Below, one piece after another: positions 3,601 to 17,330 of a stretch of 19,233 nt of DNA. Positions within the stretch are counted from its first letter, which is position 1. Each line of letters opens with the position of its first letter. The position numbers and the translations under genes were made by a program. The stretch is from Clostridia bacterium (GTDB lineage: Bacteria > UBA6262 > WVXT01 > JAUXBS01). The DNA lies in the NCBI GenBank assembly GCA_030618495.1, contig JAUXDE010000020.1:1-19233 (forward strand), in the 5' to 3' direction. Under the pieces are notes generated by a model, which ran no database searches, was not told the origin of the DNA, and was given only the letters and a program-made list of their open reading frames with translations.

Positions 3601-4626
3601 TTCCTCAAGCTCTTCAACCGTAGCCTGAATTTTCTTTTCCTTTACGTTGTTGAGGAATTCCCGGTACATCCCGCTGAGTTGTTTCTTGTTTCCGGAAAAC
3701 TTGTAAATATATTTCCTGTAATTAAAAAACTTTACCAGGTCGTTTTCGGCAGGATGTTTGTTGATGAGCCGGTTGAATAAATCAGCTGTGATTTCCTTTG
3801 CTTTCTCGTTTTTTCGCAGAAGAGCATAAGTCCCCTTCGTATCTTCTGATAGGAAACACCGGTCAATGCAGTCCTTCCCCTCACTGAGTTTTTCTTCTAT
3901 TGCGCCCGGGTTTGCCGCGCCTTCCAGTAACTGTTTTGAACCGTCTACCCAGTCTCTTATTTCGTAATGCCATATGATTCTTATGTCCTGGTTGGGATTG
4001 GTGTTGGTTATCATCCACTTAACGTTATTAGCGCCTATTTCATAGCCTTTCGGCATAACAGAGCATATAAAATCAGTATCAACATCCTTGATGTTTATTG
4101 ACAGTTTATTTACCTTGCCCTTCCACAACTTGGCCGGTTTCAGGATATAAGTAAGAGTACTGAGGCCTGAAGAGTCTTTTTTCATATTTATGGTATAAGT
4201 ATGTCTTATGTATCTTTTGCTCCCTGAGTTAAGCTTAATCCACGATGTGTAAACCTTGCCATAACTCATTCCCTTGATTTTTGAATTGGCCCTTGCCCTT
4301 TTAAGCGATTTCTTTCTTATTTTTTTTGACACGTAGGTTTTGAATTCCCTGATTTTAATGCCGTTTTTTGTGGATGCGGGTCTTGGAAATCCGAATTGAA
4401 AGGTCTTGGTCTTTCCCGTGTTTTGGTATAGAGCCTTGCAGTCAACGTCCCATTCACCGTCATTGGCTTCAATTTCGATGTTTGCGTGCAGGAGCCTTAC
4501 CGATGAGTTCCACGCGGGGTAGACTATGTTCTTCCCGACAAAGTAACCGTCAACGGCAAAAACAGACGAGGAAATGCAGGTCAATAATATTGTTATGATA
4601 ATCCTGATAAAAACCATTTTTTTCAT
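682..4626 (-). CDS. Large exported protein: N-terminal domain, helical repeats, membrane segment, right-handed beta-helix and OmpA-like C-terminal domain
   Basis: This 1314-residue protein starts with a signal peptide (about residues 1-24, ending SSSVFA). An N-terminal beta-rich domain (about 25-230) faintly resembles the DUF4424 type. Helical, TPR-like repeats with many Lys and Asn residues cover about 240-510. A hydrophobic segment lies at about 519-542, followed by amphipathic helices to about 660. A right-handed parallel beta-helix starts near 690 with a pGT-type cap. It has about 14 rungs of 22-24 residues, each marked by a (D/N)SSxP-like turn, between about 790 and 1130. An OmpA-like domain (about 1200-1314) shows HTDNTG, GFGGQKP and GRHNNRRVEF. 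OmpA domains bind peptidoglycan, but the usual DAP-contacting Arg is Ile1261 here. The start ATG overlaps the TGA of the TadZ-TadA gene, so the two are coupled. The exact function is unknown; a wall-anchored component or accessory of the pilus is an inference. Confidence 0.85.
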   Translation of the reverse strand: MKKMVFIRIIITILLTCISSSVFAVDGYFVGKNIVYPAWNSSVRLLHANIEIEANDGEWDVDCKALYQNTGKTKTFQFGFPRPASTKNGIKIREFKTYVSKKIRKKSLKRARANSKIKGMSYGKVYTSWIKLNSGSKRYIRHTYTINMKKDSSGLSTLTYILKPAKLWKGKVNKLSINIKDVDTDFICSVMPKGYEIGANNVKWMITNTNPNQDIRIIWHYEIRDWVDGSKQLLEGAANPGAIEEKLSEGKDCIDRCFLSEDTKGTYALLRKNEKAKEITADLFNRLINKHPAENDLVKFFNYRKYIYKFSGNKKQLSGMYREFLNNVKEKKIQATVEELEEIAKDSSKYLENNELALLSYQLIFKLHKKTIKKEKIPQLLCKLAGSYADNKSYKEAINTYSSISKYSEDKKDTEWVVKKFVKMVHGKALGKIDNKLYRKSNKRILKLCNKHAGLNKYEFGAMLRIADSYKKENKFRSAVKVYENINKSKSFKQAMKDKYVKKQLAAAREKSKTETDPLFIRIIKAFLFLVLLFIMISASETINKVYRVMGLVYRKLDDALYFIWSKIRPVVSLLLKPFVSITKNLSGGIIEFVEDKMPVPLMKFTGGIISAVWAVIKTFFNNLAIAIRVISQFIGRIINLAPQDTRKKVRTLLPVPDKDYFIHIFSIFRKNKEKTQRVSGELKRDMKWKGAVTVTGDVIISKGKTLTLRPGTTVAFNADSCDNDAAIEHNGKLISNNGKCDIIVYGKLLAEGREGAPVVIGKEGWGSIIFMGKAKGSVINLCEVSGAVDAIKCYDSSTPGIKNSIIENNTGFAIKISDDSAPIIDSNRIANNGAGGILCENSSSARITSNAINNNNAVGINCIDSSSPKIISNNVSKGNLVAIECGGSSTPKITKNNIQESKNCGIISRDNSKPGIKDNNIGNNGIGVTCLNSSEPSVENNRIRGSKLAINCQDASKPVVRGNTLTGNNNGIDLETSTELTITSNKINNSIDSGIICRDSIKHIIKENSFEKNNSGITCFDDNSSLLSNNKFKENKAGLTCKNSSKPTFEKNSIEDNYYGIVCLESSSPVINENAIKNSKNTGIKFINHSTPEITLNNIEKNEVALMMGSLTGANIDGSNVFKDNKKREEAFEEEGVPVSRTAPTLTASSTESPGTPGQVVLESAIDSAPGGDPVEEIKTIEGVSMNEETIEGGKKTVITVLEEAIKFDLVEETFSDESLPNLERIGEAIKSFEKHNIEINVHTDNTGNPTYNMQLSGNIGKSIKEYLVNVKKLEAERIKHEGFGGQKPVATNDSVEGRHNNRRVEFILTKQA

Positions 4627-6710
4627 TGAAACATCCCCATGTCAACATCATATCCCATTGACTTAAGTTCCCCGAGAAACCCGGGGACGAAACCCGTGTT
4701 CTTGAAATCACCCTTAATCCTGCCGTTTCTATCTATGCCTTCCTGGCAGAAAGTGAATATGTCCTGCAGGGTGATTACGTCCTGCTCTATTCCGGTAACT
4801 TCGCTTATCTGCGTTATTTTTCTTGAACCATCGCCCAGGAACCTTGTGACCTGTACGATTAGCTGTATTGCAGAAGCAATTTGTTCCCTGATTGCCTTGA
4901 CGGGCAGTTCCATGCCTGCCATAAGAACCATCGTTTCAATTCTTGAGAGCGCATCACGCGAGGAATTTGAGTGAACGGTGGTTATTGAGCCGTCGTGCCC
5001 GGTGTTCATTGCCTGGAGCATGTCAAGAGCTTCGCCGCCGCGGCATTCGCCGATAACTATCCTGTCAGGTCTCATTCTGAGGGCATTTCTTACAAGGTCA
5101 CGTATAGTAATGGCTCCCTTACCCTCAATGTTAGGAGGTCTTGCTTCAAGTCTTATTACGTGTTCCTGGGGCAGTCTCAATTCCGCGGAATCCTCTATCG
5201 TTATTATTCGCTCGGTTGGCGGGATGAAGCCTGAAATGATGTTCAGGAGAGTTGTTTTCCCTGTTCCTGTGCCTCCGGATATTATGACGTTCTTCCTGCA
5301 CTTCACGCATAGTTTGAGGAAAGCTGCCATTTTCTCATCAATCGTTCCGAGATTTATCAGGTTATCGATGCTAAGTACTTCCTTTGCGAACTTCCTTATG
5401 GTCAGGGTAGGCCCTTCAAGGGACAACGGGCTTATTATTGCATTTACCCTGGAGCCGTCAGGAAGCCTTGCATCAACGTACGGGGAACTCTCGTCTATCC
5501 TTTTCCCCAGCGGGGTAACAATGCGCTCTATAACCCTTAAAATATGATGATTATCAATAAATGCTTTGCCTGACTTTTTTATGCATCCGTTTATTTCAAT
5601 GTATATTCTGTCGGGAGCATTGACCATGATTTCGGTTATTTTTTCATCAGCCAGAAGTCCTTCAAGCGGTCCGAGTCCCAACACTTCGTCCATTATTTCT
5701 TTTACGAGTGATATTCTTTTCAATCGCGTGGAAGTCTTGATTTTTTCCCTGTCCAGGATTTCCCCGATTTTCTTTTCAACATCTCTATGCAGGGCTTCGG
5801 ATACATCGTTGTCTTTAAGGTCCATCTCCTTTACGAGCTGCCTGTGGACACGTATTATTATTTCATCCCTGCCGTCTTTCTTGTCGGATGAGGTAATTTG
5901 CCTTGAAGGAATACCGCTTTCTTTTACGGCTTGAATACTCCTGTCGTCAGAATCCTCCGTAAAAAGCAATTCCCCCTTTCTGTCCCTCCCTGAATGTATC
6001 TGGCCTGCCATTTTTTCTATGGCTGTTGACAGCGGAGTTTTTTTCCTGTTCACCGCGAACGGGATTTCCTTATTAATTGATTCAAGGACGGTTTCCTGTT
6101 CTTCGGGAACATTGATGAAAATGTCCCTCTTCAGGTATTTTTCTATATCAGACTGGCTGATTCCTGATTTTCCGTTTGTACGGTTAAGCACTATCCTTGT
6201 TTTAAAGGCCGGGAAGTGAAGCTCGGTTAGTTTGTCAAGGATGAACCCGCAGTGATTTACAGATAAGGTATCGGGAGTGGCGACAACCAGCGCCAGGCTG
6301 GTGTTGTCAAGGGTGGACAGCAGTTCCCCTGAAAAACCCTGCCCCATGTCGATAATTATATAATCAAATTCATTTTTTAACTGCCTGAGTAGTACGGTTA
6401 AAGAAGGTTTCCCGGTTTCTTTTTCATGAATGCCCGATATAACCCTGACTCCATGGATGGGTTTTATTTTTTCCTTAAGAGAATTATCTCCGGACCGGGT
6501 ATCAGTATTGATATTAAGGTCTTTAATTGTAGTGATTTTATGAATGTTGAAAATAGTTGCAGAATCCCTGCCAAACAGGAAATTGAAGTCAAGCAGGGCC
6601 GTTTCGTTATTTTTTTCCTTTGCAAGGTTAACAGCAAGGTTTGAAGCCAGCACTGTTTTGCCTACCCCACCCTTACTTGAAAGAAATGTAATGACTTTAC
6701 CCTTTTTCAT
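4623..6710 (-). CDS. tadA: TadZ-TadA fusion: ParA/MinD-like localisation ATPase joined to the pilus assembly ATPase
   Basis: This 695-residue protein fuses two Tad components. Residues 1 to about 240 are a ParA/MinD-type ATPase with deviant Walker A SSKGGVGKT (signature Lys13) and an IIDMG Walker-B-like strand, as in TadZ/CpaE but without a receiver domain. A charged linker leads to a CpaF/TadA secretion ATPase (about 290-690). This part contains LGPLEGLLADEKITEIMVN, Walker A GGTGTGKTT (about 478-486), an Asp-box-like ITIEDSAELRL, Walker B DRIVIGE (about 548-554) and a His-box region TTVHSNS. The hexameric ATPase powers Flp pilus assembly at the cytoplasmic face, and TadZ positions the machine. 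A -10 box lies only 10 bp before the ATG and there is no Shine-Dalgarno sequence. The gene begins the second Tad transcription unit, behind a terminator, and overlaps the next gene by 4 bp. Confidence 0.95.
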   Translation of the reverse strand: MKKGKVITFLSSKGGVGKTVLASNLAVNLAKEKNNETALLDFNFLFGRDSATIFNIHKITTIKDLNINTDTRSGDNSLKEKIKPIHGVRVISGIHEKETGKPSLTVLLRQLKNEFDYIIIDMGQGFSGELLSTLDNTSLALVVATPDTLSVNHCGFILDKLTELHFPAFKTRIVLNRTNGKSGISQSDIEKYLKRDIFINVPEEQETVLESINKEIPFAVNRKKTPLSTAIEKMAGQIHSGRDRKGELLFTEDSDDRSIQAVKESGIPSRQITSSDKKDGRDEIIIRVHRQLVKEMDLKDNDVSEALHRDVEKKIGEILDREKIKTSTRLKRISLVKEIMDEVLGLGPLEGLLADEKITEIMVNAPDRIYIEINGCIKKSGKAFIDNHHILRVIERIVTPLGKRIDESSPYVDARLPDGSRVNAIISPLSLEGPTLTIRKFAKEVLSIDNLINLGTIDEKMAAFLKLCVKCRKNVIISGGTGTGKTTLLNIISGFIPPTERIITIEDSAELRLPQEHVIRLEARPPNIEGKGAITIRDLVRNALRMRPDRIVIGECRGGEALDMLQAMNTGHDGSITTVHSNSSRDALSRIETMVLMAGMELPVKAIREQIASAIQLIVQVTRFLGDGSRKITQISEVTGIEQDVITLQDIFTFCQEGIDRNGRIKGDFKNTGFVPGFLGELKSMGYDVDMGMFQ

Positions 6711-14699: not shown

Positions 14700-15425
14700 T
14701 TAATGAGTTTTTGTTTTTATTATGGTTGCCTTTTCCCTCAGTCCCTTAATCCACTTTTCTTTATGTTTTTCAACTTCCTTAGCGTATATTTGCTGTTTTA
14801 ACAGTTTATGGATATCCGTTTTGTTATCCCGGTAGAAATTCTCAATTTCCTTCTCGGTGGGATTTGATATTCCATGAGTTACTTCCCTGTCGATTAGTTT
14901 CTGAGCCGCAATCTGGTTTTTTACCATTTTCCTGTGTGTATCCGTTATGACAGTATTTTTAGGTAAAATATTATTCACTTTAAGCTCTTCTATCGTCTCA
15001 TCAACTTCTTTGACTGAAACAGATATTTTCTTTTCCTGTATTTCCTGAAGAACTAATAGTTCATTGATAAGATTATTAAGGTATTGTTCTTTTGCTTCCT
15101 TGAGTTTTTCAGGAGATTCATTCTTCATTTTTTCCAGGTTGCTTTTTCCAAGAATCATTAAAAGTTTTTCGTTGAATTCGCTTTCCAGTATTACCGTACC
15201 GTTAATGGTAGCAAGCGTCCTTTCTCCTGGAGGTATAACAGCGCCGGGATATTCCTTCCGGGTTGTTCCACTGTTATATAATCCTATTTCGGTGTCTCCT
15301 GCCTTTTCAAATGCCTTCAATTCCTCTTTTGCCGCGGGAGCTGGAGTTTTTCCTGCATCCTTGCCCTTGCAGGACAGGTTGAGCAGCAGGAACAGCATTA
15401 AAACCAAGGTTGTCTTTCTTTTCAT
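14700..15425 (-). CDS. SurA_N-like lipoprotein chaperone without a PPIase domain
   Basis: The protein has 241 residues from the ATG at 15425, which has AAAGGA 9 nt upstream. An ATG 18 nt further upstream lacks a ribosome site. The N-terminus (MKRKTTLVLMLFLLLNLSC) looks like a lipoprotein signal with Cys19, though Asn occupies the usual Leu position of the lipobox. After a Lys/Ala/Pro-rich linker, residues from about 70 (LATINGTVILESEFNEKL) form a SurA/PrsA N-terminal chaperone domain. The C-terminal helix ends EKWIKGLREKATI, as in that family. No parvulin-type PPIase domain lies between. It may escort exported proteins such as the neighbouring barrel-like ones; that is inference. It is downstream of the MITE-like element, which now separates it from the paralogous pair. 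Confidence 0.8.
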   Translation of the reverse strand: MKRKTTLVLMLFLLLNLSCKGKDAGKTPAPAAKEELKAFEKAGDTEIGLYNSGTTRKEYPGAVIPPGERTLATINGTVILESEFNEKLLMILGKSNLEKMKNESPEKLKEAKEQYLNNLINELLVLQEIQEKKISVSVKEVDETIEELKVNNILPKNTVITDTHRKMVKNQIAAQKLIDREVTHGISNPTEKEIENFYRDNKTDIHKLLKQQIYAKEVEKHKEKWIKGLREKATIIKTKTH

Positions 15426-15473
15426 GTTTTTAGGTCCTTTCATTAATATTATGATATACTTAGAATCTATACG

Positions 15474-15477
15474 CTAG
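15474..15477. repeat. Target-site duplication, left copy (CTAG)
   Basis: CTAG flanks the MITE-like element directly. The second copy is at 15741-15744. Because CTAG is a palindrome and both termini begin with CG, a 2-bp TA duplication is an equally consistent reading. Confidence 0.8.
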
Positions 15478-15740
15478 CGTGGTGCTTCTAACATATCTTT
15501 ACATATGCTGAAAGTATTTTGTTTCAGCGTCAAGGAACGAAGAGTGAGAATACTGTACGTATGTGAAAGATGAGTGACGCTGACGATGGACAAAAGACGA
15601 TAGCCCTTCGGGAAGGGCATCATTTGGACGTATTCTGCGTTTATCCTCTTCACCATATTCTCGATATGCTTTCATCGTCTTTCCTTGAATCCGTCTCAAA
15701 GCTTGCCCTTCATATGTCAAGATATGTTAGAAGTACCACG
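15478..15740. mobile_element. MITE-like non-autonomous insertion element, 263 bp
   Basis: The ends are inverted repeats of about 30 bp with 28 matches (15478-15507 and 15711-15740), each beginning CGTGGTRCTTCTAAC. The flanks are CTAG duplications. Joining the flanks without the element restores the 3' end of the 15727-16605 gene so that it aligns with its tandem paralog at 16620, so the boundaries are independently supported. The interior has several hairpins: CTGAAA/TTTCAG, CAGCGTCA/TGACGCTG and GCCCTT-CGGG-AAGGGC. A minus-strand reading frame of 73 codons spans most of it (15499-15720) but matches no transposase I know. A CTAG or TA duplication would fit mobilisation by an IS5-group or IS630-type transposase; no parent is visible here. 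Confidence 0.88.
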
Positions 15741-16605
15741 CTAGGTTTATCGTAATTACCGGTTCGTTTTTATTAACATACATTATATCCGGGAGTATTT
15801 CAAACCTGTTTTTTACAGCCAGGTTCATTTTTTCCAGGTTTACGGTTCCAAGTATGCAGGATATCAAGCCATATAACGCGCCTATTTTTAAACATGTTCC
15901 AAGTGTTTCAGGTTCGATAAATGCATCATCTTCAAGAATATTGATTAATCCTGCTATATATACACTATTAAACACCGGTGTTAAAAAGTTTAGAAATAAA
16001 TCACTGGCGTAAGACTCATTAAGGCCGTGCTCGCCACTTTTTCGGACGCGATATAAATAGTCATAGGGACATTCTTTTTTGAGCATATAATACGGTATAT
16101 AGCATATAGTTGCAGCCCCGGCAATTACTCCCAAAACCAGGATTACTTCTGGTGGTGAAAGAATCAGACTTTCAATACCACTGCCCACACAACCTTCCGT
16201 ACAAGCTTGTCCACAGCCTTCCACACAAGCTTCCCCGCAAGCCGGGTCTTGTCCAACATTTGATATTATTGATACTAATAAGAGAAGGGCATAAGCTGTA
16301 CCGAATCCAAGAGCGCCAAAGGTTTTATTAAGAAAAACAAGTTCTGTTGAAATGGCATATTTTCTGTTATTATTTAATCGGGCTTTATAATAATATTTTT
16401 TATGTTCATTAAAGAGATAGTACTTATATCGAGGTACTTCTATATCTTCGAAGTATCTTGGGTCTAAGTTTTCCTGGAAAATATCTCTTTCTAATTCTTT
16501 AATAAATGATTCTTTATTCAACTTCTCGGCAAAAGCATAAGAGAAGTTGCCGAATACAAAGACAAAAACATAACATAATAGTATCAATCTACATTTAGTT
16601 TTCAT
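15727..16605 (-). CDS. Exported protein with a cysteine-ladder insert, paralog of the upstream gene; C-terminus rewritten by a MITE
   Basis: This 292-residue protein has a signal peptide (about 1-27, ending YAFA). It is homologous to the neighbour at 16620-17330 along most of its length: shared elements include YKYY, RKYAISTELVFLNKTFGALG against RKYTLSPELAFIDKTLGACG, an LxxMNL-type stretch, and the C-terminal IMYVNKNEPVITINLA. Several hydrophobic segments and a terminal Phe suggest an envelope, possibly outer-membrane, protein. It carries an insert absent from the paralog, with Cys123, 127, 131, 135 and 139 spaced exactly four residues apart. The final WYF and stop codon are supplied by the inverted repeat of the MITE-like element; the ancestral end would have been YRF. 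There is no obvious Shine-Dalgarno sequence and the gap to the upstream gene is 14 bp. The function is unknown. Confidence 0.8.
   Translation of the reverse strand: MKTKCRLILLCYVFVFVFGNFSYAFAEKLNKESFIKELERDIFQENLDPRYFEDIEVPRYKYYLFNEHKKYYYKARLNNNRKYAISTELVFLNKTFGALGFGTAYALLLLVSIISNVGQDPACGEACVEGCGQACTEGCVGSGIESLILSPPEVILVLGVIAGAATICYIPYYMLKKECPYDYLYRVRKSGEHGLNESYASDLFLNFLTPVFNSVYIAGLINILEDDAFIEPETLGTCLKIGALYGLISCILGTVNLEKMNLAVKNRFEILPDIMYVNKNEPVITINLAWYF
15741..15744. repeat. Target-site duplication, right copy (CTAG)
   Basis: This is the second CTAG. It now encodes part of the Leu and Ala codons near the end of the 15727-16605 gene. Confidence 0.8.
16189..16248. repeat. Five tandem 12-bp units encoding a CxxxC ladder
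   Basis: Five degenerate 12-bp copies (for example acaaccttccgt, acaagcttgtcc, acagccttccac) encode on the minus strand the four-residue units DPAC, GEAC, VEGC, GQAC and TEGC of the protein at 15727-16605. Alternate units are the most similar, so a 24-bp duplication is also visible (19 of 24 matches between 16188-16211 and 16212-16235). Confidence 0.85.
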
Positions 16606-16619
16606 GGTTCGTATTATTG

Positions 16620-17330
16620 TTAGAATCTATACGCCAGGTTCATTGTCATTACCGGTTCGTTTTCATTAACGTACATTATATTCGGGTAGAGTCCAAGCCT
16701 TCGTTCAGTATCAAACTGCATGTTTTCAAGGTTTCTCATCCCGATTATAGTCGTTAATACCCCGTAAAGTATGCCTGCCCCCATGCTTATATTCATTACG
16801 CCTTTGTTTACTTCAGTTTCGCCATTGAAGATGTTAATCGTCGCGCCCACGTATAAACCGGAAATCCATGAAGTTATTATGTGTTTTGACACTTCAAGGA
16901 AGTAATTATCGGCTAAGCCGTATTCATACGGTTCGCTGTTAATCCTGAAATCAAACGGGCTTTCCTTTTTACTGAACATGTAAAATGTGCTGAGACCCCC
17001 AAAGACTAATCCTGCGTAGAAGGAAAATTCATCTACCATAGAACCGTTGTAAAGAAAGAACAGGAATAACGTATAACCGCCTCCACAGGCGCCAAGGGTT
17101 TTGTCAATGAATGCCAGTTCAGGTGACAGGGTGTACTTCCTGCCGGATTCCTTCAGGGATTTATAGTATATGTTCTTGTAATCCTTCATGAAGTAGTACT
17201 TATAGGAACTAACTTCTTTCTCCATGAATAACCTGTCTTCAGCTCTTCCTGCAAGCGCGCGCGTGAAACTGCCGGATGAGATACCGAGAATAAGGATTAC
17301 TGATATTAGTCTGATAATAGTTTTATTCAT
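16620..17330 (-). CDS. Exported protein of unknown function, paralog of the downstream gene
   Basis: This 236-residue protein has a signal peptide (MNKTIIRLISVILILGISSG, with cleavage likely after ALA near 27). The mature part opens with YKYYFMKDYKNIYYKSLKES and then LSPELAFIDKTLGACGGGY. Four moderately hydrophobic Gly-rich segments follow, and it ends IMYVNENEPVMTMNLAYRF. The terminal Phe fits outer-membrane insertion, but the hydrophobic segments would also fit inner-membrane helices, so its location is open. It is the first gene of a two-gene tandem duplication. Its promoter (TTGATT-N16-TATAAT) ends 11 bp before the ATG and there is no Shine-Dalgarno sequence. No known family is recognised. 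Confidence 0.8.
   Translation of the reverse strand: MNKTIIRLISVILILGISSGSFTRALAGRAEDRLFMEKEVSSYKYYFMKDYKNIYYKSLKESGRKYTLSPELAFIDKTLGACGGGYTLFLFFLYNGSMVDEFSFYAGLVFGGLSTFYMFSKKESPFDFRINSEPYEYGLADNYFLEVSKHIITSWISGLYVGATINIFNGETEVNKGVMNISMGAGILYGVLTTIIGMRNLENMQFDTERRLGLYPNIMYVNENEPVMTMNLAYRF

Follow-up and report, generated by a model that had tools for sequence, protein, structure and literature searches.

A MITE-like element in a Clostridia bacterium that replaced the last codons of one gene and supplies the stop codons of others

At the locus described here, a gene had its last codons exchanged by a mobile element, and the protein kept the same length and the same terminal residue. The locus lies in a window of 19,233 nucleotides, the whole stretch of DNA from a Clostridia bacterium that was analysed. 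A sequence-only reading of it had proposed a MITE-like insertion that kept a terminal Phe, and had suggested that the end of the element might serve generally as an in-frame, barrel-like protein terminus. The features of the locus are the following.

14700..15443, minus strand: gene of a SurA N-terminal-domain protein, next on the same strand (ORF and family search)
15460..15477, minus strand: original end of the gene, CTA GCG TAT AGA TTC TAA, left as a relic between the element and the SurA-like gene
15474..15507, plus strand: left terminal inverted repeat including CTAG (inverted-repeat comparison)
15475..15743, no strand assigned: MITE-like element, 269 bp including the two TA target copies (15475-15476 and 15742-15743)
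15711..15744, minus strand: right terminal inverted repeat including CTAG, which gives the gene TGG TAC TTC TAA (inverted-repeat comparison)
15727..16605, minus strand: target gene, 292 aa, with a signal-peptide-like start, ending ...NLAWYF-stop (ORF and family search)
16620..17330, minus strand: tandem paralog, 236 aa, 35% identical, ending ...NLAYRF-stop (insertion-free comparison)

When 15477-15743 was taken out of the window, the last 66 nucleotides of the resulting empty site were identical at 59 positions to the tandem paralog, which at 35% protein identity takes the place of a true insertion-free allele. On the minus strand, with the element and one TA (the duplicated target) removed, the site reads ...GTAATTACGATAAACCTAGCGTATAGATTCTAA, and the flanks joined with a single TA give the tail MYVNKNEPVITINLAYRF-stop, compared with MYVNENEPVMTMNLAYRF-stop in the paralog. 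The reconstructed gene encodes ...NLAYRF-stop and the filled gene ...NLAWYF-stop, with 292 residues in both readings. These results bear out four statements of the sequence-only reading: the joined flanks align closely with the 3' end of the paralog, the insertion-free gene would end in LAYRF, the inverted repeat supplies TGG TAC TTC TAA to give LAWYF-stop, and both protein length and terminal Phe were kept. Between the 18-nt relic in the left flank and the tail of the paralog, 17 of 18 positions agree, and the element end itself was the only other near match in the window at 14 or more of 18.

The insertion point is the TA of a CTAG within the fifth-last codon (CTA, Leu). The element had been said to have landed at CTAG, and this motif indeed stands at both 15474-15477 and 15741-15744; what needed refining was the target, since the duplicated sequence is best read as the TA inside CTAG. 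At this locus alone, CTAG is indistinguishable from the end of the inverted repeat because it is its own reverse complement, and other copies of the element settled the question for TA. A 4-bp CTAG duplication was set aside, as ATAG or TTAG stands at the ends of other copies and CTAG is self-complementary.

The arms of the element are inverted repeats of 34 nt that are 94% complementary, and its 269 bp contain no ORF of 80 aa; it is short and has no transposase gene. Each strand folds as a single long hairpin (z -6.7 and -7.8). An Rfam search returned no match. We conclude that it is a MITE-like, non-coding and non-autonomous element, a new family that exemplifies a known kind. The consensus terminus of the family is (C)TA-GTGTRGTG...CTAACATA, from which the window copy departs by GCG for GTG at both ends and by TAC for TGC at the coding end only. 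At positions 15478 and 15740, C replaces the T of the family (TAGCGT, not TAGTGT), and at the coding end this T-to-C change restores the original Ala codon GCG of the gene. The matched changes at the two ends suggest that one repeat converted the other or that the progenitor was a variant.

BLAST and the terminus pattern located the element at about 41 places in the 1.69-Mb genome, a count in which a few places may be two halves of one copy, as many contigs break inside the element; the assembly consists of 179 contigs, many of them broken at repeats. The degenerate terminus pattern, allowing up to one mismatch, found 52 termini and its reversed control none. Many copies have decayed, and others are up to 93% identical to the window copy. 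The element also occurs in the sole genus relative (G001) and was absent from the order relatives and the other genomes searched. The expectation that further copies with the same ends exist was thus confirmed in both genomes. An exact interior 27-mer was found only in CSMAG_2805, a MAG entered as a Clostridia bacterium, within a contig collection in which the records of the window's own genome are possibly absent, and the terminus pattern had no match in viral contigs. The family looks genus-restricted. Many copies sit just upstream of start codons, for example at +11 for a recA-like gene and at +12 for a surE-like one (names read from sequence), and in the window the first ATG of the SurA N-terminal-domain gene lies 31 bp past the left TA of the element.

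A long copy on contig C92, considered as a longer autonomous form, proved to consist of part of the element fused to a second repeat family, and trp genes follow it. This second interspersed family, whose junctions carry TTGTACTCTGTCTCATAAATT, adjoins half copies of the element at L051:3380-3650 (C92), L018, L025, L027, L041 and L010, as if the two had recombined or become nested. In some element copies, a short repeat of the CCCTTCGACTTCGCTCAGGA type is nested as well (L014:180-260, L012, L023).

The copies further define the target. TA-G is found at 32 of 56 element ends, one side often being mutated in older copies, and the base before TA is C at 22 of the 36 ends with an intact TA, whereas C precedes TA at a background rate of 10% in the same DNA. 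This bias agrees with the preference of IS630 for TA in CTAG reported in the title of Tenzen and Ohtsubo (1991), as given in the reference list of PMC2170065. Of the features that would mark an IS630/Tc1-mariner-derived MITE, a TA target duplication and a CTAG preference were thus found, and a cognate IS630 transposase with matching ends was not. The IS630 transposase domain PF13358 was absent from this genome and G001, and PF01609-type transposases were absent from all six phylum genomes (this genome and five relatives). Across the same six genomes, NF033545 gave a single weak, sub-threshold match, in this genome, to an ORF with a helix-turn-helix and an apparent rve-type catalytic region, which is therefore not IS630. 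A 328-aa transposase with a helix-turn-helix and an apparent rve-type catalytic region is encoded at the end of contig C116 (L144:880-1866) and is, as far as seen, unrelated to the element. Because no IS630 transposase was found, we term the element IS630-like and not IS630-derived. The mobiliser may have been lost or lie in unassembled sequence, and its type is suggested by the target and the ends of the element.

At 13 of the about 41 places, the element end supplies the stop codon of the adjoining gene; recognised families account for 11 of these genes. The census excludes a ribD end on contig C170, whose match of only 18 bp may be due to chance. In the rows below, TAG stands for TA plus the first G of the element.

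pgpA-like gene, contig C10: stop at TAG, nothing added
yidC, contig C95: stop at TAG, nothing added
DsbD_2 protein gene, contig C112: stop at TAG, nothing added
RtcB family gene, contig C41: stop at TAG, nothing added
dapA, contig C70: stop at TAG, nothing added
AcrB family gene, contig C103: stop at TAG, nothing added
unnamed ORF, contig C49: stop at TAG, nothing added
histidine kinase gene, contig C178: V, then stop
TIGR00725 protein gene, contig C52: V, then stop
NifU_N protein gene, contig C116: VW, then stop
glmM-like gene, contig C42: VCCL (four residues), then stop, in the same frame as the window gene
rlmD/trmA-family methyltransferase gene, contig C1: VCCL (four residues), then stop, in the same frame as the window gene
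window gene, 15727..16605, minus strand: AWYF, then stop

The RtcB family protein matches its profile to the last position (961 of 961), and its end coincides exactly with the TAG of the element; the insertion therefore hit the native stop codon and left the protein unchanged. The NifU_N-domain ORF (L046:3346-3636), which ends VW-stop within the element, covers its profile to position 86 of 127, and in this copy the insertion may have truncated the gene. The window gene alone among the 13 ends in Phe: seven of the other twelve gain nothing and the rest gain V, VW or VCCL. Most element ends carry TGTAGTG or TGTGGTGA and reach a stop before any Phe in the frame of the window gene. The family consensus would read LVWCF in this frame, Ala and Tyr being peculiar to the window copy. 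Counting the copies at gene 3' ends in the frame that gives WYF-stop therefore returned the window gene only, the two other genes in the same frame ending VCCL-stop.

Insertions in the stop codon or the last five codons numbered 13, where about 4 of 41 were expected (P about 1e-4) from an approximate background of TA sites in about 160 kb, with element copies masked and long ORFs taken as genes. Since short genes and edge genes escape it, this background overestimates intergenic DNA, and the 13 sites were tallied post hoc. We therefore speak of a moderate enrichment of gene-end sites. Such enrichment is expected if insertions into stop or last codons are nearly neutral.

The protein encoded by the target gene had no match in Pfam or NCBIfam. 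It contains several hydrophobic, helix-like segments, and AlphaFold2 models built from two sequences only were mostly helical without a barrel, at very low confidence (mean pLDDT 36 and 41). A C-terminal Phe with alternating hydrophobic residues is the tail motif of BAM-dependent outer-membrane barrels, and both features can be read in VITINLAWYF of the target and VMTMNLAYRF of the paralog. The tail thus has a beta-signal-like alternate-residue pattern before and after the insertion, and it may matter to the protein, for which an outer-membrane barrel is at most a possible fold. G001 has ispH (73% identical) and lacks the paralog pair beside it. The protein family was absent from all relatives searched, and a scan of the assembled-contig collection for the paralog found nothing. 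Elsewhere in the window, a single 695-aa ORF (4623-6710, minus strand) apparently joins a MinD/CpaE-like and a TadA/CpaF-like ATPase, in a cluster that reads as Tad-pilus-like.

How the present tail arose and why it was kept could be explained in several ways. That no insertion took place, the gene and its paralog having diverged while the repeat arose in place, is refuted by the relic tail and by the dispersed copies of the element; we found no evidence in its favour, and its probability is vanishing. Selection for the terminus itself, with an in-frame, outer-membrane beta-signal-like ending that favoured insertions at the 3' ends of barrel genes, is very improbable. The window gene does keep its end Phe, residues 3, 5, 7 and 9 counted back from the C-terminus are hydrophobic, and TAC (Tyr) occurs at the coding end alone, the other end keeping TGC. 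However, twelve of the 13 genes lack a terminal Phe, the eleven with recognised families belong to cytosolic or inner-membrane families and include no outer-membrane barrels, most termini stop too early in this frame, and the barrel nature of the target is itself unproven. The family-wide, barrel-like terminus envisaged from the sequence was not supported.

The hairpin could instead have been kept at 3' ends for a role in RNA stability, processing or termination, the peptide tail being incidental. The strong folding of both strands and the placement of 13 of the about 41 sites at gene ends, above the approximate background, are consistent with such a role, and a comparable action on mRNA has been reported or proposed for NEMIS/Correia and YPAL (PMC2229807). 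Nevertheless, such folding is common to any inverted-repeat element, the many copies just upstream of start codons are what random intergenic survival would give, and many copies have decayed; we consider this role unlikely. It is also distinctly improbable that the ends of this genus-specific MITE repeatedly replace the stop or last codons of housekeeping genes and are kept as a useful 3' end of hairpin plus stop, with occasional selective tuning of the tail (here the changes from Val to Ala and from Cys to Tyr).

Very probably, a non-autonomous element of the TA-target (IS630/Tc1-mariner-like) kind inserted into the last codons, and the change of tail was tolerated. This miniature transposon entered the TA of CTAG in the fifth-last codon, where its inverted repeat, by chance open for three sense codons after Ala, replaced YRF-stop by WYF-stop. 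The insertion would have persisted through the mildness of the change, with the same length, the same last residue and the alternate hydrophobic positions kept. The empty site, the copies, their end sequences and the stop codons are direct observations; the tail change was presumably neutral or near-neutral. The element is found in or at the last codons of roughly a dozen genes since TAA and TAG both contain TA, insertion there always rebuilds TAG, and in two of the three frames translation meets a stop no more than about five codons from the element end. At this single locus the terminal Phe is a coincidence that was tolerated, and it is not a function of the family.

The original tail and the element end after TAG are alike at 9 of 14 positions, which is unusually high: exactly 9 of 14 occurred in 2 of about 1,500 TAG-following 14-mers, and higher scores were rare and mostly element ends. 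Plain chance explains this likeness poorly, whereas selection for tolerated sites would explain it, and it fits the survival of an insertion that altered little.

According to Croucher et al. (2011; PMC3049150), BOX repeats contain the extreme 3' end of 36 pneumococcal genes together with the stop codon, and there was no strong evidence that these genes are truncated. Like the BOX repeats of Streptococcus pneumoniae, the present element is a small interspersed repeat at gene 3' ends that supplies the stop without clear damage to the protein, but BOX has another sequence, a modular boxA/B/C architecture and another host. The RUP element of S. pneumoniae, for which IS630-Spn1 is the presumed mobiliser (PMC2229807), shares the TA at its ends, the inverted repeats, the non-autonomous nature and the lack of a through-going open frame. 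In contrast to our element, RUP measures 107 bp, is reported as intergenic, and has its cognate IS630 in the genome, where we found none. In-frame fusions of bacterial MITEs to genes, among them Correia/NEMIS, RPE and YPAL, were reviewed by Delihas (PMC2229807). In these, too, element sequence enters the neighbouring protein; they add longer peptides, whereas the present element adds zero to four residues and a stop.

The supply of stop codons by such elements is therefore already described, and the window locus is a clean and well-resolved example of it. With the relic tail and the paralog side by side, it reveals that a mobile element rewrote the C-terminus of a protein without breaking the protein. 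The genome-wide census illustrates how stop codons can come to harbour a TA-targeting element without its being noticed, and the finding would matter more if the hairpins proved to set the 3' ends of mRNAs.
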